Origin: Actinomadura terrae
Lineage (GTDB): Bacteria; Actinomycetota; Actinomycetes; Streptosporangiales; Streptosporangiaceae
Length of the DNA stretch: 64,000 nucleotides
Assembly (NCBI RefSeq): GCF_022751215.1
Contig: NZ_JAICDG010000001.1
Location: 682,001 to 746,000 of the forward strand
Direction of reading: 5' to 3'
Below are positions 3,415-56,888 of the stretch, piece after piece (the stretch's first letter is position 1; every line of letters starts with the position of its first letter). A model generated the notes under the pieces. It ran no database searches. It was not told where the DNA came from and saw only the letters and a list, made by a program, of their open reading frames with translations. A program made the position numbers and the translations under genes.

Positions 3415-5598
3415 TCAGGGGACGGGCTCCAGCGTGGCCGAGGACGGGCGGTCGTCCTCCCGGATGCCGTACCGCCCGTACAGGCGGCCCAGCGGGCCGG
3501 GGGCCCACCAGTTCGCGCGTCCGAGCAGCCGCATCGTGGCGGGCACGAGCAGTGCCCGCACGACGGTCGCGTCCAGCACGATCGCGAGCGCCATCCCGAC
3601 CCCGACCATTTTGATGAACGTGACCCCGGACGTCGCGAACGCGCCGATCACGACGATGAACAGCAGCGCCGCGCTGGTGATGATCCCGCCGGTGCGCTGC
3701 ACGCCGGTGCCGACGGCGGCGGTGGTCGAACCGGTCAGGTCGTACTGCTCGCGCACCCGCGACAGCAGGAACACCTCGTAGTCCATCGAGATCCCGAACA
3801 GGATCGCCAGCATCAGGATCGGCATCGCGGGGGACACCGACCCGGTCGCGGTGAAGTCCAGCGGGCCGGACAGGTGGCCCTCCTGGAAGACCAGCACCAG
3901 CGCGCCGAACGTGGCGCCCAGCGTCAGCATGTTCATCACGATCGCCTTCAGCGGCAGGACGATCGACCCGAACGCCAGGAACAGCAGCACGAACGTCGCG
4001 CCGCCGATGAGCAGCGCGAGCCACGGGAGTGTCGAACCGATGCTGGACAGCTGGTCGACGATCTCGGCGGTCGAGCCGCCGACCCGCACCCGCGCGCCCG
4101 GCGGCGCCGGGACGTCCCGGACGCGCTCGACCAGCGCCCGCGCCTCGCTGGAGTTCGGGTCGGCGTCATAGCGCAGCGCGATACGGGTGGTGGACCCGCC
4201 GCTCGCGGTGTTGGTGCCGGTGACGGCCGCGCCGGTCACACCGGGCAGCGCGTCCAGGCGGTCCCCGTACGCCTGGATCGCCGCCCGGTCGGCCGTGCCG
4301 GTCACGACGGCCTCGATGGGGTCGGTGATGTTGCGGGGGAACTGCGTCTCCATCGTCTCGGCGACGACGCGGGCGTCGGCCCCCTCGGGCAGGGCCTTGG
4401 CGTCGACGCCGCCCCAGTTGATCCGCAGGGCGGGGGCGCCGAGGACGCCCAGCAGCACGACGGTGGCCGCGACGTAGACGACGGGACGGCGCATGACGCT
4501 GTGCGCGACGCGTCCCCACCAGCCGTCCGCGCGTCCCGCGGCCGGGGTCGTGGCCGCCTTCTTCCGCCGCCGGATCGACAGCGCGTTCACCCGGGGCCCG
4601 AGCACGGCCAGCAGCGCGGGCAGGACGGTCAGCGCGCCGACCATGCAGACGAACACGGTCGCGATGCCGCCGTAGCCCATCGAGCGCAGGAAGTTCTGCT
4701 CGAACAGCAGCAGCCCGGACAGCGACACCGCGACCGTGACCCCCGACACCGCGACCGTGCGTCCGGCGGTGGCCATGGTGGTGGCCAGCGCGTCCTCGAC
4801 GGACTCGCCGCGGGCGATCTCCTCGCGGAACCGGCTCACCATGAACAGGCCGTAGTCGATGGCGAGCCCGAGGCCGAGGAACGTGGTGATGTTCACCGCG
4901 AAGATCGAGATGTCGGTGACATAGGTGAGCAGGTGCAACGCGGTGAACGCGCCGAGGATCGCGACGCCGCCGACCACCAGCGGCAGGCTCGCCGCCACCA
5001 GCCCGCCGAAGATCAGCACGAGCAGCACCAGCAGGATCGGCATCGCCATGCCCTCGGCCCGGCCGATGTCGGAGGCCACCCGCGAGTTGATCTCGGTGCC
5101 GGTGCCGACGAGCCCGCCGACCTTGGCGGTGAGCCCGCCGCCGACCTCGGTCAGCCGGTCCTTGATCTCCTTGTAGGAGTCGTCGCGGGCGCCGTCGTCG
5201 GCACCGGCGAGCCGCAGGACGGCGTAGGTGGAGGTCCTGTCCTTGCTGACGAACTGCGGCGACTTCGTCGTCCAGTACGTGGAGGCGGCGGCGACCTCGG
5301 TGCGCGGCAGCGCGGCGAGCGCCCGCTCGACCGAGGCGCGGTAGGCCGGGTCGTCGACGGTCATGCCGGGACGGCCCTGGTAGAGGATCACGACGTCGGC
5401 CGCGTCGCGGCCGAGGTCGCGCTCGGCGATCTGCGCCGCGCGGGCGCTCTCGCTGCTCGGGGTGTTGAAGCCGCCGCCGGAGGACAGGGCGCCGAACAGC
5501 CCCGTGCCCCAGACGGCGGCGACGACGAGCACGGCGCCCGCGACCGCGAGCACGGCGCGGCGGCGCCGGTGGACCCATCGGCCCCAGTTATCGAACAT
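3415..5598 (-). CDS. MMPL-family RND-type membrane transporter
   Basis: A 727-aa integral membrane protein of the MMPL/RND family, which exports lipids or drugs using the proton-motive force. It has the family duplication: TM1 (residues about 14-35), an extracytoplasmic loop (about 40-175), a five-helix bundle (about 180-340), TM7 (about 370-390), a second loop, and a final bundle (about 510-690). The conserved GLGLAIDYGLFMVSRFREE segment and its second-half counterpart ILFGISMDYEVFLLSRVREQ carry the TM4 and TM10 acidic/tyrosine residues of the proton relay. Length is typical for short actinomycete MMPLs. It is transcribed divergently from a TetR regulator (5712), the usual arrangement for a drug- or lipid-responsive exporter, so it is probably repressed by that neighbour. 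The substrate cannot be deduced. Confidence 0.93.
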   Translation of the reverse strand: MFDNWGRWVHRRRRAVLAVAGAVLVVAAVWGTGLFGALSSGGGFNTPSSESARAAQIAERDLGRDAADVVILYQGRPGMTVDDPAYRASVERALAALPRTEVAAASTYWTTKSPQFVSKDRTSTYAVLRLAGADDGARDDSYKEIKDRLTEVGGGLTAKVGGLVGTGTEINSRVASDIGRAEGMAMPILLVLLVLIFGGLVAASLPLVVGGVAILGAFTALHLLTYVTDISIFAVNITTFLGLGLAIDYGLFMVSRFREEIARGESVEDALATTMATAGRTVAVSGVTVAVSLSGLLLFEQNFLRSMGYGGIATVFVCMVGALTVLPALLAVLGPRVNALSIRRRKKAATTPAAGRADGWWGRVAHSVMRRPVVYVAATVVLLGVLGAPALRINWGGVDAKALPEGADARVVAETMETQFPRNITDPIEAVVTGTADRAAIQAYGDRLDALPGVTGAAVTGTNTASGGSTTRIALRYDADPNSSEARALVERVRDVPAPPGARVRVGGSTAEIVDQLSSIGSTLPWLALLIGGATFVLLFLAFGSIVLPLKAIVMNMLTLGATFGALVLVFQEGHLSGPLDFTATGSVSPAMPILMLAILFGISMDYEVFLLSRVREQYDLTGSTTAAVGTGVQRTGGIITSAALLFIVVIGAFATSGVTFIKMVGVGMALAIVLDATVVRALLVPATMRLLGRANWWAPGPLGRLYGRYGIREDDRPSSATLEPVP

Positions 5599-7913: not shown

Positions 7914-8575
7914 TCCGGGTCCTGCTGGTGGACGACCAGCACCTCGTCCGGATGGGGCTGCGGATGCTCTGCGACTCCGCGCCCGACCTGGAGGTCGTCG
8001 GCGAGGCCGGGGACGGCCGGGACGCGCCGCGCCTGGTCGGGGAGCTGAGCCCGGACGTCGTCCTGATGGACCTGCGGATGCCCGGCGTGGACGGGATCGC
8101 CGCGACCCGCCGGATCACGGCGGCGTGGCCGGCGGTCCGGGTCGTGGTGCTGACCACGTTCGACGACGACGACCACCTCTACCCCGCGCTCGCCGCCGGG
8201 GCGTTCGGCTTCATGGTGAAGGACGCGCCGCCGCCCGAGCTGCTGCGCGCCGTCCGGATGGCGGCGGGCGGCGAGTCCCCCTACAGCGGCGACGTGCTGC
8301 GGCGGCTCGTCGACCAGGCGGTGCGGGCCCGCTCCGAGCCGCAGGAGGCGGACGGGACGGCAGGGCCGCGCCCCCCGGCCGGGCTGACCGCGCGCGAGGA
8401 GGAGGTGCTGGCGCTGGTCGGCGCGGGCCTGTCGAACCGGGAGATCGGCGACCGCCTGCACCTCGGCGTCACGACCGTGAAGACCCACGTCGCGAACCTG
8501 ATGCGCAAGACCGGCTGCCCCAACCGGATCCGGCTCGCCGTCCTCGCCGTCCGGACCGGCGTCACCCCGCACTGA
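7910..8575 (+). CDS. NarL/FixJ-family response regulator
   Basis: A 221-aa response regulator. The receiver domain (residues 1-120) starts IRVLLVDDQHLVRMGLR, with the phospho-acceptor aspartate in VVLMDLRMPGVDG (about residue 54), the switch Thr in VVLTTFDDDD and the Lys in GFMVKDAPP. The C-terminal LuxR-type helix-turn-helix is GLTAREEEVLALVGAGLSNR and following (about residues 155-215). The start GTG overlaps the kinase stop, so the pair forms a translationally coupled two-component system. The last codons (Pro-His-stop) form the first unit of the 16-bp tandem array at 8565-8735, so the repeat has grown out of the gene's own 3' end. Confidence 0.95.
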   Translation: MIRVLLVDDQHLVRMGLRMLCDSAPDLEVVGEAGDGRDAPRLVGELSPDVVLMDLRMPGVDGIAATRRITAAWPAVRVVVLTTFDDDDHLYPALAAGAFGFMVKDAPPPELLRAVRMAAGGESPYSGDVLRRLVDQAVRARSEPQEADGTAGPRPPAGLTAREEEVLALVGAGLSNREIGDRLHLGVTTVKTHVANLMRKTGCPNRIRLAVLAVRTGVTPH

Positions 8576-8735
8576 GGCAGAGCCGCACTGAGGCAGAGCC
8601 GCACTGAGGCAGAGCCGCACTGAGGCAGAGCCGCACTGAGGCAGAGCCGCACTGAGGCAGAGCCGCACTGAGACAGAGCCGCACTGAGGCAGAGCCGCAC
8701 TGAGGCAGAGCCGCACTGAGACAGAGCCGCACTGA
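8565..8735. repeat. 16-bp tandem array, about 10.7 copies, spanning a stop codon
   Basis: The unit AGCCGCACTGAGGCAG repeats in perfect 16-bp phase from 8565 to 8735. Copies at 8661 and 8709 carry AGACAG instead of AGGCAG, and the first copy (8565-8580) is the coding end of the response regulator (CCCGCACTGA...). Every unit therefore contains a TGA matching the authentic stop. There are no spacers. High identity points to recent slippage or unequal crossing-over. Confidence 0.97.
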
Positions 8736-8740
8736 CAGAA

Positions 8741-8776
8741 GAGGCCCCCGGAACCGTGAACGGCTCCGGGGGCCTC
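8741..8776. terminator. Bidirectional terminator hairpin between response regulator and moeZ
   Basis: GAGGCCCCCGGAACCG pairs with CGGCTCCGGGGGCCTC (near-perfect 16-position stem, tetraloop TGAA). It lies between convergent genes and can serve both directions. Confidence 0.8.
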
Positions 8777-8822
8777 GCACACCCGCCTGGTAGCGGATCA
8801 GCGGTGGGTCAGCCGGTGGTGA

Positions 8823-10004
8823 TCAGTACGAGGGGAGGCTCGGGTCGATCTGGTTCACCCAGGCCAGCACGCCGCCGCCGACGTGCACGGCGTCGCCGAA
8901 GCCGGCGTTCTTGACCACGGCCAGCGCCTCGGCCGACCGCGCGCCCGACTTGCAGTGCAGGACGATCTTGCGGTCCTGCGGGAGGCGCTCCAGCGCGGAG
9001 CCATTCAGGAACTCGCCCTTGGGGATCAGCGTCGCGCCCGGGATCGAGACGATCTCGTACTCGTTCTGCTCGCGGACGTCCACGAGGAAGATGTCCTCGC
9101 CGCGGTCCTGCATGGCCTTGAGGTCGTGGACGGAGATCGTGGACTGCGCGGCGGCCTCGGCGGCCTCCTCGGAGACCGCTCCGCAGAACGCCTCGTAGTC
9201 CTCCATCAGCTCGGTCTGCGTCGGGTTCTTCCCGCACAGCGGGCACTCCGGGTCCTTGCGGACCTTGACCGAGCGGTAGCTCATCTCCAGCGCGTCGTAG
9301 ATCATGAGGCGGCCGACGAGCGGCTCGCCGATGCCCGTGAGGAGCTTGATGGCCTCGTTCACCTGGATCGAGCCGATCGACGCGCACAGGACGCCGAGCA
9401 CCCCGCCCTCCGCGCAGGAGGGGACCATGCCGGGCGGCGGCGGCTCGGGGTAGAGGCAGCGGTAGCACGGGCCGTGCTCGGCCCAGAACACCGACGCCTG
9501 GCCGTCGAACCGGTAGATCGAGCCCCACACGTACGGCTTGCCGAGCAGCACGGCCGCGTCGTTCACCATGTACCGGGTGGCGAAGTTGTCGGTGCCGTCC
9601 AGGATCAGGTCGTACTGGGCGAAGACGTCCATGATGTTGTCGCGGTCGAGCGCGGTGTTGTGCACCACGACCTCGATCAGCGGGTTGATCTCGCGGACGG
9701 TCGCGGCGGCGGACTCGACCTTCGGCTTGCCGAGGGAGGACTGCCGGTGGATGACCTGGCGCTGGAGGTTCGACTCGTCCACGACGTCGAAGTCGACGAC
9801 GCCGAGCGTCCCGACACCGGCGGCGGCCAGGTACATCAGGGCCGGCGAGCCGAGGCCGCCCGCGCCGACGACCAGGACCTTGGCGTTCTTCAGACGCTTC
9901 TGCCCGGCCATCCCCACGTCGGGAATGATGAGGTGCCGCGAGTAGCGGTTGACCTCGTCGCGGGTGAGCTCGGCTGCGGGCTCGACCAGAGGTGGCAACG
10001 ACAC
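8823..10004 (-). CDS. moeZ: Adenylyltransferase/sulfurtransferase MoeZ
   Basis: A 393-aa two-domain protein that activates ubiquitin-like sulfur carriers (MoaD, ThiS, CysO types) by adenylation and then transfers sulfur. The N-terminal ThiF/MoeB domain starts at YSRHLIIPDVG and has the nucleotide loop VVGAGGLGSPALMYLAAAG. A CPLCG zinc-site pair lies near residue 245. The C-terminal rhodanese domain (about 290-390) carries the catalytic cysteine in IVLHCKSGARS. The GTG at 10002-10004 is chosen because AGGAG lies about 7 bases upstream and the protein then begins MSLPPLVEPAAELTRDEV, as in other actinomycetes; a longer frame to 10073 lacks support. MoaE, a partner in molybdopterin synthesis, is encoded at 48472. 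Confidence 0.95.
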   Translation of the reverse strand: MSLPPLVEPAAELTRDEVNRYSRHLIIPDVGMAGQKRLKNAKVLVVGAGGLGSPALMYLAAAGVGTLGVVDFDVVDESNLQRQVIHRQSSLGKPKVESAAATVREINPLIEVVVHNTALDRDNIMDVFAQYDLILDGTDNFATRYMVNDAAVLLGKPYVWGSIYRFDGQASVFWAEHGPCYRCLYPEPPPPGMVPSCAEGGVLGVLCASIGSIQVNEAIKLLTGIGEPLVGRLMIYDALEMSYRSVKVRKDPECPLCGKNPTQTELMEDYEAFCGAVSEEAAEAAAQSTISVHDLKAMQDRGEDIFLVDVREQNEYEIVSIPGATLIPKGEFLNGSALERLPQDRKIVLHCKSGARSAEALAVVKNAGFGDAVHVGGGVLAWVNQIDPSLPSY

Positions 10005-10215
10005 GGTGATGCTCCTGTGCTGACGCTCGGCTGGTACGGGGGACGTCATGTCCTTACGGCACAACCTTGCCATGTCCAGCGGAATTCCCCGAGCGCGGTG
10101 TCCACCTCCGGCGTGCCCTCCTCCGGGAGTCAGGCGCGGAGCCCGTGCCTGGGTGAAGCGCCCTTACGCGGATGTCAGGGCGCAATGTCGTGAAGCACAG
10201 TTAATCTTGGCTGTT

Positions 10216-48471: not shown

Positions 48472-48936
48472 GTGACCGAAGTCAGCGCCGCCACCGGCAT
48501 CGCCTCTGGAACCCCGGACGTGATCCGCCTGATCGGCGTCCGCGAGACGCCCCTCTCGGTGGACGAGGTGTACGCCGCCGTCGGCGACCCCGCCGCCGGC
48601 GGCACCGCCGTCTTCGTCGGGACCGTCCGCGACCACGACCACGCGCGGGCCGTCCGCCGCCTGTCCTACAGCGCCCACCCCAGCGTCGAACGCGAGCTGC
48701 GCGCCGTCATGGACAGGGTCGCCGCCGACCTCCCCGTCCGCGCCCTGGCCGCGGTCCATCGCGTCGGCGACCTGGAGATAGGCGACATCGCGGTCGTCGT
48801 CGCCGCCTCCTGCCCCCACCGCGGCGAGGCGTTCGATGCCTGCCGCAGGCTCATTGACGACCTCAAGGCGAACGTCCCGATCTGGAAGCACCAGACCTTC
48901 GCCGACGGCGGAGACGAGTGGGTCGGGGCCTGCTGA
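48472..48936 (+). CDS. moaE: Molybdopterin synthase catalytic subunit MoaE
   Basis: A 154-aa MoaE. It inserts two sulfurs, carried by thiocarboxylated MoaD, into precursor Z to make molybdopterin. Signatures are TAVFVGTVRDHDHARAVRRL, YSAHPSVERELRAV, HRVGDLEIGDIAVVVAASCP, HRGEAFDACRRLIDDLKANV and the catalytic-lysine region PIWKHQTFADGGDEWVG. The GTG start at 48472 is 28 bp upstream-coupled to the PDZ-protease gene. MoeZ (8823) may sulfurylate its partner MoaD; no moaD is in the window. Confidence 0.95.
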   Translation: MTEVSAATGIASGTPDVIRLIGVRETPLSVDEVYAAVGDPAAGGTAVFVGTVRDHDHARAVRRLSYSAHPSVERELRAVMDRVAADLPVRALAAVHRVGDLEIGDIAVVVAASCPHRGEAFDACRRLIDDLKANVPIWKHQTFADGGDEWVGAC

Positions 48937-48964
48937 GGCCCCCGCGCCGCATAGAGTTTCCGCC

Positions 48965-50014
48965 ATGTCTCGTCGTGCCGCCACGCTCACCGTCGCGAGC
49001 GTGCTCGTCCTCGCGCTGGCCCTCGTCGGCTCCCTCATGCCCGTGCCGTACGTCGCGCTGATGCCCGGCCCGACGAGCAACACCCTCGGCGTCAACGACA
49101 AGGGCCAGCCGCTGATCAGGATCGACGGCCGGCAGACCTACGACGACAACGGCCACCTGAACTTCGTGACCGTCACCTACCGGGGCGGGCCCGGCGGGCG
49201 CATCGACCTGTTCACCGCCCTGCGCGGCTGGCTCGACGGCGACACCGCGATCGTCCCCGAGGAGACCGTCTTCCCCAAGGACGAGTCGCAGAAGGAGGTG
49301 GACGAGGAGAACACCCGCCAGATGCAGGACTCCCAGGAGAGCGCCGAGGCCGCCGCCCTGCACGAGCTGAAGATCCCGATCACCACCCAGGTCGTCGTCG
49401 ACGGCGTCCAGAAGGGCAGGCCCGCCGCGGGCAAGCTCAACCCCGGCGACGAGGTCACCGCCCTGGACGGCGTCAAGATCACCAGCGTCGCGCAGGTCAC
49501 CGGCACGATGGCCAAGCACAAGATCGGCGACAGCGTCACGCTCACGATCGTCCGCGGCGGCAAGGAGCAGAAGCAGACGCTCACCACCGTCGCCGACCCC
49601 ACCGGCAAGCGCCCCGTCGTCGGCATCGTCCTCGGGGACCGCTACAAGTTCCCCTTCAAGATCGACATCAGCGTGGGCGACATCGGCGGACCCAGCGCCG
49701 GCCTCATGTTCTCCCTCGCCATCGTCGACAAGCTCACCCCCGGCCCCCTCACCGGCGGCAAGTTCATCGCCGGCACCGGCACCATCACCCCCGAGGGCGA
49801 GGTCGGCCCCATCGGCGGCATCCAGCAGAAGATGATCGCCGCCCGCCGCGCCGGCGCCACCATCTTCCTCACCCCCAAGGACAACTGCGCCGACGCCCTC
49901 GACGCCCGCCCCGACGGCCTCCGCCTCGTCCGCGCCGACACCCTGCACGGCGCCGTCCAATCCATCAACGCCCTCACCAGCGGAAACGGCCCCATCCCCG
50001 AGTGCAAGAAGTAA
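48965..50014 (+). CDS. PDZ and Lon-protease (S16) domain membrane protein
   Basis: A 349-aa protein (Rv3194c type). An N-terminal signal anchor (TLTVASVLVLALALVGSLMP, residues 7-26) is followed by a unique beta region, a PDZ domain (about 155-235, GRPAAGKLNPGDEVTALDGV) and a C-terminal Lon-type protease domain. The catalytic Ser is in DIGGPSAGLMFSLAI (about residue 247) and the Lys in GGIQQKMIAARRAGA (about residue 290), forming the Ser-Lys dyad. It presumably acts on the outer face of the membrane. ATG 48965 is separated from moaE by 28 bp. A tRNA gene follows after 46 bp. Confidence 0.93.
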   Translation: MSRRAATLTVASVLVLALALVGSLMPVPYVALMPGPTSNTLGVNDKGQPLIRIDGRQTYDDNGHLNFVTVTYRGGPGGRIDLFTALRGWLDGDTAIVPEETVFPKDESQKEVDEENTRQMQDSQESAEAAALHELKIPITTQVVVDGVQKGRPAAGKLNPGDEVTALDGVKITSVAQVTGTMAKHKIGDSVTLTIVRGGKEQKQTLTTVADPTGKRPVVGIVLGDRYKFPFKIDISVGDIGGPSAGLMFSLAIVDKLTPGPLTGGKFIAGTGTITPEGEVGPIGGIQQKMIAARRAGATIFLTPKDNCADALDARPDGLRLVRADTLHGAVQSINALTSGNGPIPECKK

Positions 50015-50060
50015 ACCCGTTCGATCCACCCCCCACCATGCAATAGAGTTAAGACATCAC

Positions 50061-50134
50061 CGCGGGGTGGAGCAGTTCGGTAGCTCGCTGGGCTCATAAC
50101 CCAGAGGTCGCAGGTTCAAATCCTGCCCCCGCTA
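50061..50134 (+). tRNA. Initiator tRNA-fMet (anticodon CAT)
   Basis: 74 bases with a full cloverleaf. The acceptor CGCGGGG pairs with CCCCGC with an unpaired 1-72 position (C and T), the initiator hallmark. The anticodon arm is CTGGG-CTCATAA-CCCAG (three G-C pairs, CAT anticodon), and the T-arm loop is GGTTCAAATCC. CCA is not encoded. A TAGAGT -10-like box lies 12 bp upstream. It is identical to the copy at 56622. Confidence 0.97.
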
Positions 50135-50250
50135 CGGGTCCTGGGGTCCGCTGGTCGTGCTTTGCACTTCCCAGCGGGCCCCTTCGCCGTTTCCCCGGGG
50201 GGGCGACCCCCCGGACCCCCCGATGTGGGGGCTCCGCCCCCACGCCCCCT

Positions 50251-50273
50251 GCGCGCGCTGCGCGCGCTTTTTT
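50251..50273 (+). terminator. Intrinsic terminator of tRNA-fMet copy 1
   Basis: Stem GCGCGCG / CGCGCGC with loop CTG, followed by six T. It is preceded by two more GC hairpins and followed by GGGGC-TTC-GCCCC. Confidence 0.85.
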
Positions 50274-50422
50274 GGGGCTTCGCCCCTTGCCCCCGGTGGG
50301 GGCTGGGATTTGTGGGTTCCTGGCGGTCTGCTGCGGAATGTGACTTTTGGTAACTCTGCATAGAAGGTTCCGGAGTGTTGTGGTCCGATGCTGGGGGTGG
50401 CAGCGTGTGAGGAAGTGATCAC

Positions 50423-51763
50423 TTGGACGTGTTCGCGATTCCTCTGGAGGATGGCGCCTACCTGGTGTACGCGCCTCTCCATGGGGTGGCCTTCGCCGCT
50501 TCTGAGGGGTTGGTGGCGGCTCTTCCCAGGGTTCTGGCGGGGGACGGCGGGGACGAGAGTGTCGGCGCGTTCGTTCGTGAGGCGGGGCTGTTGGGGGACG
50601 TTCGGCCTCCCGTCAGTCGGCGGAGTGGGGCGCCCTCGCCTACCGAGGTGACGTTGTTCCTGACCACGGCTTGCAATCTGCGCTGCACTTATTGCTATGC
50701 CTCTGCTGGGGACGCGCCCGCTACGTACATGACCATGGACGTGGCCAGGCGCGGCATCGACTTCGTCGTCGGGAACGCCAGGCGGGACGGGGCGCCGTTC
50801 GCCGGGGTGCACTTCCATGGGGGCGGGGAGCCTAGCGTCCACTGGAACCTCATGACCGGGGCGCTGGCGTACGCCCGGGAGGCCGCCGGTGATCTGGAGG
50901 TCATCGCGTCCTCGGCGGGGAACGGGGTGTTCACGGATCGCCAGATCGACTGGATGATCGCCAACCTCAACGGGGGCGTGAGCCTGTCGTTCGACGGGCT
51001 GCCCGAGGTGCATGACCGGCACCGGCCAACCGTGCGCGGCGACGGGTCCAGTGGTCGTGTCATGCACACGATGCGGCGGTTCAGCGACGCCGGTCACCCC
51101 TATGCGGTGCGGTTGACCGTCACCGCGGAGCAGATCCCCTTGCTGCCGGAGTCGGTGGATTTCGTGTTGGCGAACTTCACTCCGACGCGGGTTCAGGTGG
51201 AGCCCGCCTACCAGCTCGGACGGCACGAAGGGCAGCCGGACGCCGAGACCGAGGAGTTCATCGGCGCGTTTCGTGAGGCGCAGGCGCGTGCCGCACGTTA
51301 CGGGCACGAGCTCGTCTACAGTGCGGCGCGCGTCGGGACGCTCAGTAATCATTTTTGCGGGGTCACGCGAGACAATTTCTGTCTCAGCCCCGCCGGTGGC
51401 GTCTCGGCCTGCTTCGAGGCGTTCTCCGAGGACAACGAGTTCGCCGACGTGTTCTTCTACGGCTCGTCCACGCCGGACGGCTTCGCCTTCGACACGGATC
51501 GGCTCGACCGGCTGCGCGGAATGGGTGTCGAGAACCGGCCGTTCTGCGACGGGTGTTTCGCCAAGTGGAACTGTTCGGGGGACTGCTACCACCGGTCCCT
51601 GGCGGCGAACGGGCGCGGGGAGTTCGCCGGATCGCAGCGCTGTCACATCACCCGGGAACTGGTGAAGGACCAGCTTCTGACCCGCATCGCTGATTCGGGC
51701 GGGCTGGTCTGGCGTGATGGCCGTGACGCGTCCTGCGCCGTCCACGGGAGCGGGCATGAGTGA
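50423..51763 (+). CDS. Radical SAM/SPASM-domain maturase
   Basis: A 446-aa radical SAM enzyme. An N-terminal domain of about 70 residues (VFAIPLEDGAYLVYAPLHGV) could be a substrate-recognition domain. The radical SAM cluster motif is TTACNLRCTYCYA (Cys84, Cys88, Cys91), and GVHFHGGGEPSVHW is the SAM-binding region. A C-terminal SPASM-type region carries many cysteines: NHFCGVTRDNFCLSPAGG, SACFEAF, FCDGCFAKWNCSGDCYH and QRCHITRE. Such enzymes modify peptides or proteins (thioether, C-C crosslinks, epimerisation). The start is TTG 50423, with GAGGAAG 8 bases upstream. The stop overlaps the next gene's start region by 8 bp, so that gene's product is the likely substrate or partner. Confidence 0.92.
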   Translation: MDVFAIPLEDGAYLVYAPLHGVAFAASEGLVAALPRVLAGDGGDESVGAFVREAGLLGDVRPPVSRRSGAPSPTEVTLFLTTACNLRCTYCYASAGDAPATYMTMDVARRGIDFVVGNARRDGAPFAGVHFHGGGEPSVHWNLMTGALAYAREAAGDLEVIASSAGNGVFTDRQIDWMIANLNGGVSLSFDGLPEVHDRHRPTVRGDGSSGRVMHTMRRFSDAGHPYAVRLTVTAEQIPLLPESVDFVLANFTPTRVQVEPAYQLGRHEGQPDAETEEFIGAFREAQARAARYGHELVYSAARVGTLSNHFCGVTRDNFCLSPAGGVSACFEAFSEDNEFADVFFYGSSTPDGFAFDTDRLDRLRGMGVENRPFCDGCFAKWNCSGDCYHRSLAANGRGEFAGSQRCHITRELVKDQLLTRIADSGGLVWRDGRDASCAVHGSGHE

Positions 51764-52577
51764 TCTGCCCTGGCCACGGGTGCGGCGTTCGGAGGCTCCT
51801 GTGGAGCGGTCGGCCGCTCCGCATTACGAGATCCAGCGGGTGAACGTTGACGGGTCCTCCGGGCCGGTCGAGGTGCTGCCCATCGTCAGGCCGCCGTGGA
51901 ACGCGGCGTCCGGGCGGCGCGGGTTCCTCGGCGCGGGCATCGCGTCGTCGGTGGCGGCGGCGCTGCTGCTCGGCGGGTGCGGAACCGATGAGGAGCCGCA
52001 GGCCCCGCCGTCCTCGCCCACTCCGTCGTCAGAGGAGCCGACTTACGAGCCGACCGATGAACCTACTGACGAGCCCACCTACGAGCCCACTGAGCCTGAT
52101 CCTCCCACCTTTGGGGACGACGACGGCGGGGGTGGGGGTGGCGGGCAGATCTGCACCTGCAACAAGGTCTGCACCTGCATTCCGATCTGTCAGGCGCATC
52201 GGCTGCTGAGCCCTGATCCGGTCGTCCGGCGTATGGCCGAGGTCGTGGTGGTCGCGATGGGGGTTTCTGAGCTGGCGTATCTGCGGTGGGCGGCGTCGGG
52301 GGCGTCAGGTCCGCTGCGGGCGCGCATTGAGGGGTTGGTCGACGAGGTGTGTTGGGGGCGTCGGGTGCGACCTGACGATCTTGACGACGTCGGGTGCGAG
52401 CCCTACCTGGACTCCGGTGATCCTGTCGTCGCGCTGATGGCGGCGCAGGTCATTGTTCTGCGCGCGCTGTTGATCGGTACTGGAGTTACCGGTGCGGTGG
52501 CTGGACGTGTCGCGCGGGCTCTGGTCGTTGGGCACGCCCTTCATCGTGAGCGGGCGCCGGCCTGGCGGGAGTCCTGA
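51756..52577 (+). CDS. Tat-lipoprotein-like protein with Cys-rich motif; putative substrate of adjacent radical SAM enzyme
   Basis: A 273-aa protein of unusual layout. Residues 1-50 are a polar leader-like segment. A twin-arginine signal SGRRGFLGAGIASS (Arg54-Arg55) with hydrophobic core runs into a lipobox LLGGC (Cys75). A Pro/Thr/Glu repeat spacer follows (EEPTYEPTDEPTDEPTYEPT), then an acidic and Gly run. The Cys motif QICTCNKVCTCIPICQAH (Cys133, 135, 139, 141, 145, His148) comes next, then a helical domain of about 120 residues. The ATG lies inside the end of the radical SAM gene. The motif could be a modified core or a metal site, and the Tat/lipobox would export and anchor it. No characterised family is recognised. 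Its 3' end overlaps the convergent PucR gene by 37 bp. Confidence 0.8.
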   Translation: MSDLPWPRVRRSEAPVERSAAPHYEIQRVNVDGSSGPVEVLPIVRPPWNAASGRRGFLGAGIASSVAAALLLGGCGTDEEPQAPPSSPTPSSEEPTYEPTDEPTDEPTYEPTEPDPPTFGDDDGGGGGGGQICTCNKVCTCIPICQAHRLLSPDPVVRRMAEVVVVAMGVSELAYLRWAASGASGPLRARIEGLVDEVCWGRRVRPDDLDDVGCEPYLDSGDPVVALMAAQVIVLRALLIGTGVTGAVAGRVARALVVGHALHRERAPAWRES

Positions 52578-56545: not shown

Positions 56546-56621
56546 GTCTGGGCCCCGGTTCACGCCCGGTTCGCTATCGGTTTGCGCAAGCAACTCCATC
56601 CCCATAGAGTTAAGACATCAC

Positions 56622-56695
56622 CGCGGGGTGGAGCAGTTCGGTAGCTCGCTGGGCTCATAACCCAGAGGTCGCAGGTTCAAATCCTGCCCCCGCTA
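56622..56695 (+). tRNA. Initiator tRNA-fMet (anticodon CAT), second copy
   Basis: Identical over all 74 bases to the gene at 50061, including the unpaired 1-72 position and the three G-C pairs above the CAT anticodon loop. CCA is not encoded. Upstream are a TTGCGC -35-like box and TAGAGT -10-like box with 17-bp spacing. Confidence 0.97.
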
Positions 56696-56811
56696 CGGGT
56701 CCTGGGGTCCGCTGGTCGTGCTTTGCACTTCCCAGCGGGCCCCTTCGCCGTTTCCCCGGGGGGGCGACCCCCCGGACCCCCCGATGTGGGGGCTCCGCCC
56801 CCACGCCCCCT

Positions 56812-56833
56812 GCGCGCGCTGCGCGCGCTTTTT
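56812..56833 (+). terminator. Intrinsic terminator of tRNA-fMet copy 2
   Basis: The same GCGCGCG-CTG-CGCGCGC stem as copy 1, followed by five T. It also lies downstream of the convergent giant gene. Confidence 0.85.
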
Positions 56834-56888
56834 GGGGCTTCGCCCCTTGCCCCCGGGCTTCGCCCATTTGTGTGGGTTCGGCTTGGCT

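Follow-up and report, generated by a model that had tools for sequence, protein, structure and literature searches.

A radical SAM/SPASM enzyme gene overlapping that of a Tat-signal protein with a conserved Cys motif: a candidate two-gene maturation cassette in Actinomadura terrae

The maturation of Cys motifs by radical S-adenosylmethionine (SAM) enzymes is already known in kind. According to the excerpt of PMC7876137, QhpD crosslinks QhpC by means of a leader of 28 residues, QhpE does the trimming and QhpF the export, and the excerpt of PMC8326336 describes an N-terminal recognition element (RRE) for ribosomally synthesised and post-translationally modified peptides (RiPPs) in CteB, a Cys-Thr thioether in SCIFF, and an Asn20-Cys23 link in NxxcA. 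Here we describe two overlapping genes in a 64,000-nucleotide stretch of Actinomadura terrae (contig NZ_JAICDG010000001.1, positions 682,001 to 746,000; hereafter the window), taken from a genome of 8.96 Mb. The first codes for a radical SAM/SPASM enzyme, referred to as the maturase, and the second for a protein with a twin-arginine translocation (Tat) signal and a Cys motif, its proposed substrate. New, so far as checked, are the C-x-C-x-x-V units, the unrelated exported scaffolds which carry them, the leader placed before the Tat signal and the spread over four phyla. In the open-access literature (subscription papers being outside the scope) no paper was found on this pairing, on radical SAM joined with a Tat signal, or on CTCNCV.

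The gene pair of the window

We propose, with a probability of roughly 60%, that this gene pair makes up a self-contained cassette of maturase and substrate, providing for leader binding, crosslinking, Tat export and release by a single cut, of which we infer the chemistry and the export. A scan of contigs gave 35 pattern matches, from which 7 loci were confirmed, six of them in actinomycetes (L013-L018) and one in a metagenome-assembled genome of the Verrucomicrobiaceae (L019), and in 7/7 the maturase gene lay beside the substrate gene. Among 149 relatives, the full-length substrate was found in three and the maturase (E<=1e-40) in the same three; co-occurrence of the 273-aa protein with the radical SAM enzyme, which an earlier note on this DNA had named as a check, therefore holds from either gene. 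The full-length substrate was present in 2/394 genomes of the class, and the two Streptomyces genomes with the maturase, among 295, both also encode the substrate. These results support the view that the enzyme and the 273-aa protein form a dedicated enzyme-substrate pair, and the cassette is rare. When the flanks (about 6 kb per side) were compared by matching all open reading frames (ORFs) of at least 100 aa against each other, only the two cassette genes were common throughout to seven actinomycete loci and L019, with the exception of two close Streptomyces, L015 and L018, which have further flanking genes in common. Partial substrate matches, due to the signal and the low-complexity linker, were rejected both among the relatives (9/12 genomes, best E 4.7e-7 vs <=1.5e-94 for the true three) and among the genomes of the class (76/78, best E 3.8e-8 vs <=1.6e-120 for the true two).

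The Cys motif ICTCNKVCTCIPICQAH consists of two C-x-C-x-x-V/I units plus Cys145 and His148. Across seven actinomycete substrates, 16 of its 17 columns (I132-H148) are invariant, and pairwise amino acid identity falls from 0.983 in the motif through 0.909 (signal region), 0.741 (leader, residues 21-48) and 0.676 (helical domain) to 0.429 (linker). Identical residues of the motif differ in codon in 29% of comparisons; the residues are kept while the codons drift, so selection acts on the protein. The weight of the motif comes from this conservation, because at the DNA level the CxCx3CxC pattern by itself shows no enrichment across the genome and is rarer than its control (35+34=69 matches vs 59+52=111). 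Mere occurrence of the motif was consequently dropped as evidence, since the count in the window (4 vs 0.05 expected) was not upheld by the whole genome. A twin-arginine signal followed by a lipobox was matched by regular expression in 7/7 actinomycete substrates, one of which reads RRGLL. The C-terminal domain is predicted by AlphaFold2 to be all-helical, with a predicted local distance difference test score (pLDDT) of 85.4 and a predicted template modelling score of 0.81; Foldseek gave no PDB match for it at E<=0.001, the best sequence match had an E of 0.78, and the all-helical prediction alone says little about the domain.

The features of both genes are collected in Table 1. The maturase gene starts with TTG, with AGGAAG shortly 5' of it (50410-50415), and the ATG of the substrate gene falls within the maturase gene, whose stop codon is at 51761-51763. 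A start codon at the position equivalent to 51756 is present in the aligned homologues, and a longer form of 287 aa, starting with GTG at 51714, is mechanically possible. The earlier note had described a SPASM-type radical SAM gene with Cys84/88/91 and a Cys-rich C-terminus, the overlap of its 3' end with the start of a 273-aa protein, and the architecture of that protein as leader, twin-arginine signal, lipobox, P/T/E linker, Gly run, Cys motif and helical domain, all of which was confirmed.

Table 1. Positions in the window of the maturase gene, the substrate gene and their features
Feature	Position	Strand	Basis
Radical SAM/SPASM maturase, 446 aa	50423..51763	+	PF04055 3.3e-10, above cut-off
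Possible RRE: N-terminal beta-beta-beta-alpha-alpha domain	50423..50602	+	Model, local pLDDT about 65-80; inference
Radical SAM cluster motif C84-x3-C88-x2-C91 (CNLRCTYC)	50672..50695	+	Sequence; invariant in 13/13 maturases
SPASM region C312-x12-G325-x4-C330 ... C375-x2-C378-x5-C384-x3-C388 ... C407	51356..51643	+	Invariant in 13/13 maturases
8-nt overlap, maturase stop / substrate start	51756..51763	+	Sequence
Substrate protein, 273 aa	51756..52577	+	ORF; alignment of actinomycete homologues
Conserved leader segment PHYEIQRV...PPW, residues 22-48, motif P-x(1,2)-[FY]-x-[LIV]	51819..51899	+	Alignment, regular expression
Twin-arginine signal GRRGFLG...LLGGC, lipobox LGGC75	51912..51980	+	TIGR01409 sub-threshold; alignment; regular expression
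P/T/E-rich linker and Gly run	51981..52148	+	Sequence; least conserved part
Cys motif ICTCNKVCTCIPICQAH, residues 132-148, proposed modification site	52149..52199	+	Sequence, conservation
All-helical domain	52200..52574	+	AlphaFold2; no PDB fold match

The maturase and its likely chemistry

The maturase matches PF04055 above the cut-off and has 3 + 7 Cys invariant in 13/13 maturases, the C-terminal ones in a SPASM pattern, which places it among the radical SAM/SPASM proteins. Against NCBIfam, 71 families were matched and the best 25 were considered, none of which reached its cut-off: the best was PapB (NF047865) with 115.9 bits (cut-off 340), and the models of the SCIFF maturase (TIGR03974) and of QhpD (TIGR03906) gave 95.5 bits (cut-off 425) and 92.4 bits (cut-off 453). 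PapB was also the top family, among the best 25 for each, for the maturases of L054, L055 and L056. The best PDB sequence match was the SCIFF maturase CteB (1.6e-42), which also took the top row in the structure comparison (VIA Z 16.4, 294 aligned residues, rmsd 5.8; second CteB row Z 16.2). These matches support placing the maturase, as judged by sequence, nearest to the thioether-forming enzymes PapB, SCIFF/CteB and QhpD. The alignments with CteB (5why/5wgg) begin at residue 1 of the maturase model and those with the anaerobic sulfatase-maturating enzyme (anSME) at 72-73, and among the best 50 structure rows only those of CteB and TigE align from residue 1 and span the N-terminal domain. This domain may therefore be RRE-like, with structural support that is weak because of the poor modelling of the SPASM part. 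A scan with a defence library gave weak viperin matches for the maturase and no match for the substrate.

The maturase might instead introduce a change other than a crosslink, such as oxidation, epimerisation or desaturation of a Cys or of its neighbour, in the manner of anSME, which converts a Cys or Ser of exported sulfatases to formylglycine. The targets of anSME are large exported enzymes, modified before they leave the cell, its structures tie with that of CteB (Z 15.7 vs 16.4, less than 1 apart), and C141-I-P-I/V resembles the start of the sulfatase motif C-x-P-x-R. However, no Arg is present at +4 from C141, a position occupied by Cys in 7/7 actinomycete proteins; by sequence the maturase resembles PapB, SCIFF and QhpD more closely than anSME, whose model gave 46.0 bits (cut-off 349); and repeated paired Cys units suit crosslinking better than a modification of this kind, which we consider unlikely.

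Partner proteins and leader in four phyla

Related pairs were found in actinomycetes, Verrucomicrobiota, Chloroflexota and Pseudomonadota. Loci were picked by maturase similarity, so that the counts are descriptive and the sample is not random. The maturase profile was made of 13 rows, and 20 rows scored >200 bits, 13 of them profile members; a neighbouring ORF with CxC units was found for 18 of these 20, directly adjoining except in L056. As a whole, 20 partner proteins contain 70 C-x-C-x-x-x windows, a count in which overlaps are allowed and windows having Cys at position 4 are excluded. Position 2 is occupied by T in 30, S in 12 and V in 8, position 4 by N in 24, V in 15, I in 10 and D in 8, and position 6 by V in 42 and I in 4, and therefore the repeating pattern is C-[TS]-C-x-x-V.

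The maturase was present at E<=1e-60 in 6/288 genomes of the Verrucomicrobiota sample and at E<=1e-50 in 5/315 genomes of the class of genome G480, three genomes being common with the former sample. The partners in L019, L052 (two), L054 and L056 are Tat-signal proteins ending in C-x-C-x-x-V units, and WD40 was found in those of L019, L054 and L056 and in the first of L052; outside the actinomycetes, WD40 proteins with repeated units at their end make up most of the Tat partners. A second, divergent radical SAM gene (185 bits) lies near the WD40 partner at L056:2537-3943. The L053 partner (8489-10204) has a Tat signal and one WD40 stretch above the cut-off; it ends in a Peptidase_S74 (endosialidase chaperone) domain after a CVCIPV unit. 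Of 30 plasmid records matched, 9 were examined. In L066, from a Candidatus Chlorohelix plasmid (Chloroflexota), two Tat-signal proteins precede the maturase (3501-4832), one with WD40 and the other without a Pfam match; a second radical SAM gene (L066:1-2131) stands directly before the first WD40 partner, and the partner tail used as a query retrieved its own record only. The partner in L067, from a Caballeronia plasmid (Pseudomonadota; 4670-5269), has a Tat signal, CSCNKESGCACVGHERCVCIG immediately behind the probable cleavage site and, following this, a PT linker, with a DUF1344-like match slightly below the cut-off. Other partners are short Cys-rich peptides of 116 aa (L055), 96 aa (L079) and 73 aa (L080), and L068, a Methylocystis plasmid, encodes directly 3' of its maturase an acidic peptide of 128 aa with 19 Cys (4892-5293). 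Pairs of this sort, with the units multiplied or carried by short peptides that resemble precursors, speak for the interpretation of the earlier note, which is supported in part. In viral contigs, 7 loci were matched at 22-25% identity. By regular expression, a lipobox was found in 10 of the 16 Tat-type partners, and in 3 of the 9 from outside the actinomycetes. A profile of the tail PCGxPxPxGAxCxCNCVxG, built from three genomes later found with it, matched 3/288 genomes of the Verrucomicrobiota sample, all among the six with the maturase, and the informative figure is the 0/282 obtained for genomes without it; the partners in the other three maturase genomes (G612, G665, G714) do not have this tail. 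The samples searched for the tail and for the maturase are equal in size and, where their genomes are listed, in membership.

These partners bear on a second alternative, in which C-x-C-x3-C-x-C-x3-C-x2-H, on an exported lipoprotein, does no more than bind a metal or an Fe-S cluster and the enzyme modifies another part of the protein or something else. CxC pairs plus His are typical of metal sites, and Tat is the usual route for cofactor-carrying proteins. Nevertheless, L019 (...CSCNKVCTCIPVAY, at the C-terminus) keeps the CxCxxVCxC core without the fifth Cys and the His, and the units stand on unrelated scaffolds (helical, WD40, DUF1344-like, short peptides) beside related maturases, which makes a plain metal site improbable.

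In a tree of 18 rows, rooted by hand on L080, the 14 maturases with Tat-type partners (16 partners) formed one clade with support 98/97, and the four with short CxC peptides (L055, L079, L080, L068) fell outside it, as they did in a tree of 26 rows. The smaller tree omits 10 of the 28 rows that scored >20 bits, namely L069, L070 and eight which scored 40-185 bits (L021, L022, L044, L085-L088 and the second radical SAM enzyme of L056). The plasmid maturases L086-L088 and QhpD L085 (<=121 bits) were dropped as CxC pairs and kept as the outgroup of the 26-row tree: no ORF with two CxC was found in L085 or L086, the sole one in L087 is an annotated halogenase, and the two in L088 lie away from the radical SAM gene. 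The plasmids L069 (Edwardsiella) and L070 (Salmonella) encode, together with the maturase, a short LCCRGG peptide with a Gly-rich end, an ABC transporter and an S8 peptidase, with an additional hypothetical ORF upstream, and look like a separate RiPP type.

The motif P-x(1,2)-[FY]-x-[LIV] is N-terminal in 15/16 Tat-type partners, from three phyla, and is also found in L079, a short peptide without a Tat signal. Its occurrence with and without the signal suggests a recognition element and not a part of the signal, and the conserved segment ahead of the Tat signal resembles the leader of a RiPP. Among representatives, 8/12 matched, against an average of 0.58 and a maximum of 5 in 20000 shuffles, a figure which overstates the case as the regular expression was drawn by eye from the sequences and then counted. 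That the segment is an ordinary N-terminal extension of the Tat signal, with direct recognition of the Cys motif by the enzyme, as could be the case in L067, with a Tat signal and CxC units and no leader motif, and in L055, L068 and L080, likewise without it, is very doubtful, given that L079 and Tat partners from three phyla retain the leader motif and that the maturase model aligns from residue 1 with the RRE-bearing part of CteB.

Proposed mechanism and comparison with known systems

The cassette is best read as belonging to a ranthipeptide-like lineage of maturases in which the substrates turned into proteins exported by Tat. In the cytoplasm, the RRE-like N-terminal domain of the maturase would bind the leader P-H-Y-E-I-Q-R-V of the 273-aa protein, and the radical SAM/SPASM centre would then install thioethers, of about -2 Da each, in ICTCNKVCTCIP[V/I]CQAH. 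In one possible register, the links would join Asn136 to Cys139 (N-x-x-C) and Ile142 to Cys145 and leave the remaining Cys free; alternatively, Cys-Thr links could be formed as in SCIFF. The PapB type of Cys-Asp/Glu chemistry cannot apply to the window motif, since it has no acidic residue. The modified and folded protein would leave through Tat, lipid-anchored at Cys75, and signal peptidase II, cutting before Cys75, would take off leader and signal together. As the leader stands in line before the Tat signal, one signal-peptidase cut could free the mature protein from both, and neither a leader protease nor an ABC transporter would be needed. The anchored motif, on its flexible linker, would stand off the membrane beside the helical domain, where a protease-proof staple and a thiol or metal site are both possible. 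Extending this, we tentatively suggest, with somewhat less than even confidence, a cross-phylum class in which a RiPP-type leader fused before the Tat signal guides a dedicated maturase to the C-x-C-x-x-V units that unrelated folded proteins (WD40, helical) carry, with release by one cut and descent from short precursors.

Several observations weigh against these proposals. Asn or Asp occupies unit position 4 in 32/70 windows only, and no known acceptor pair fits every unit, the Asp/Glu required by PapB being absent from the window motif. The leader motif is missing from the four partners named above, and the count made for it suffers from the way in which its expression was drawn. Confidence in the maturase model is low (mean pLDDT 56.7, SPASM part <50), and in structure anSME ties with CteB. 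In the 26-row tree the support of the Tat clade is only 90/76, with several long branches flagged. L069 and L070, two of the 20 rows >200 bits, have the different precursor LCCRGG and outscore L068 and L080, so that the maturase score is no clean marker of the CxC type. In addition, the L056 partner lies about 0.5 kb from its maturase, the L053 partner has just one tail unit, the three matches of the tail profile were themselves profile members, and the twin-arginine model TIGR01409 scores 11.4 bits on the substrate versus 16.7 needed. Finally, a gene with PDZ and Lon_C protease domains (48836-50014) is next upstream of the cassette, past a tRNA-Met gene; the earlier note's statement that no protease is adjacent did not hold, though this gene is not shared by the other cassette loci.

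Downstream of the cassette are genes for a PucR-type regulator, a proline dehydrogenase and an aldehyde dehydrogenase. A direct repeat of 254 bp (50043-50296 and 56604-56857, 96% identical), with a tRNA-Met (CAT) gene in each copy, encloses 6.5 kb with the cassette and these three genes. ARAGORN found no tRNA in L013-L018.

If the proposals are true, RiPP chemistry is no longer confined to peptides and reaches the tails and linkers of large proteins at the surface or in the periplasm, an ordinary signal peptidase is shown able to remove a leader, and a simple two-gene, self-targeting crosslinking module is at hand, with natural variants differing in unit number available.

Among known systems, anSME is alike in being a SPASM enzyme that modifies a motif of a large exported protein while this is still inside the cell, whereas the window motif has no C-x-P-x-R. 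The CXXX-repeat (TIGR04115) and Cys-every-fifth (NF038107) systems resemble the cassette by name, as radical SAM/SPASM enzymes with periodic Cys targets, but the window repeat is C-x-C-x-x-V and the maturase reaches 43.3 of 350 and 70.6 of 600 bits. TIGR04133 (rSAM_w_lipo), by name a radical SAM/SPASM protein paired with a lipoprotein, is not among the best 25 of 71 families for the window maturase, and scores 44.5 (L054) and 50.7 (L055) of 425 bits. NxxcA has in Asn20-Cys23 the same spacing as N136-K-V-C139 of the window, but is a short streptococcal peptide. CteB/CteA provides the closest solved structure by sequence and the top structural row, tied with anSME, but CteA is a short six-Cys peptide. 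PapB/PapA (freyrasin) shares the top NCBIfam match and the repeated Cys units, whereas the motifs given in the excerpt of PMC9413430 are Cys-x3-Asp/Glu, and the window motif has neither Asp nor Glu. QhpD/QhpC (PeaB) is likewise a radical SAM/SPASM system which, in the PMC7876137 excerpt, acts in the cytoplasm to crosslink the Cys of a protein subunit, with an N-terminal leader and an exported product; there, QhpC is small, the links are Cys-Asp/Glu, and a protease (QhpE) and an ABC transporter (QhpF) take part. In the window, by contrast, a Tat signal follows the leader, and the cassette loci have no third gene in common. A modified motif in a large exported lipoprotein had been called unusual in the earlier note; QhpC is a precedent for a folded, exported protein crosslinked by a radical SAM enzyme.

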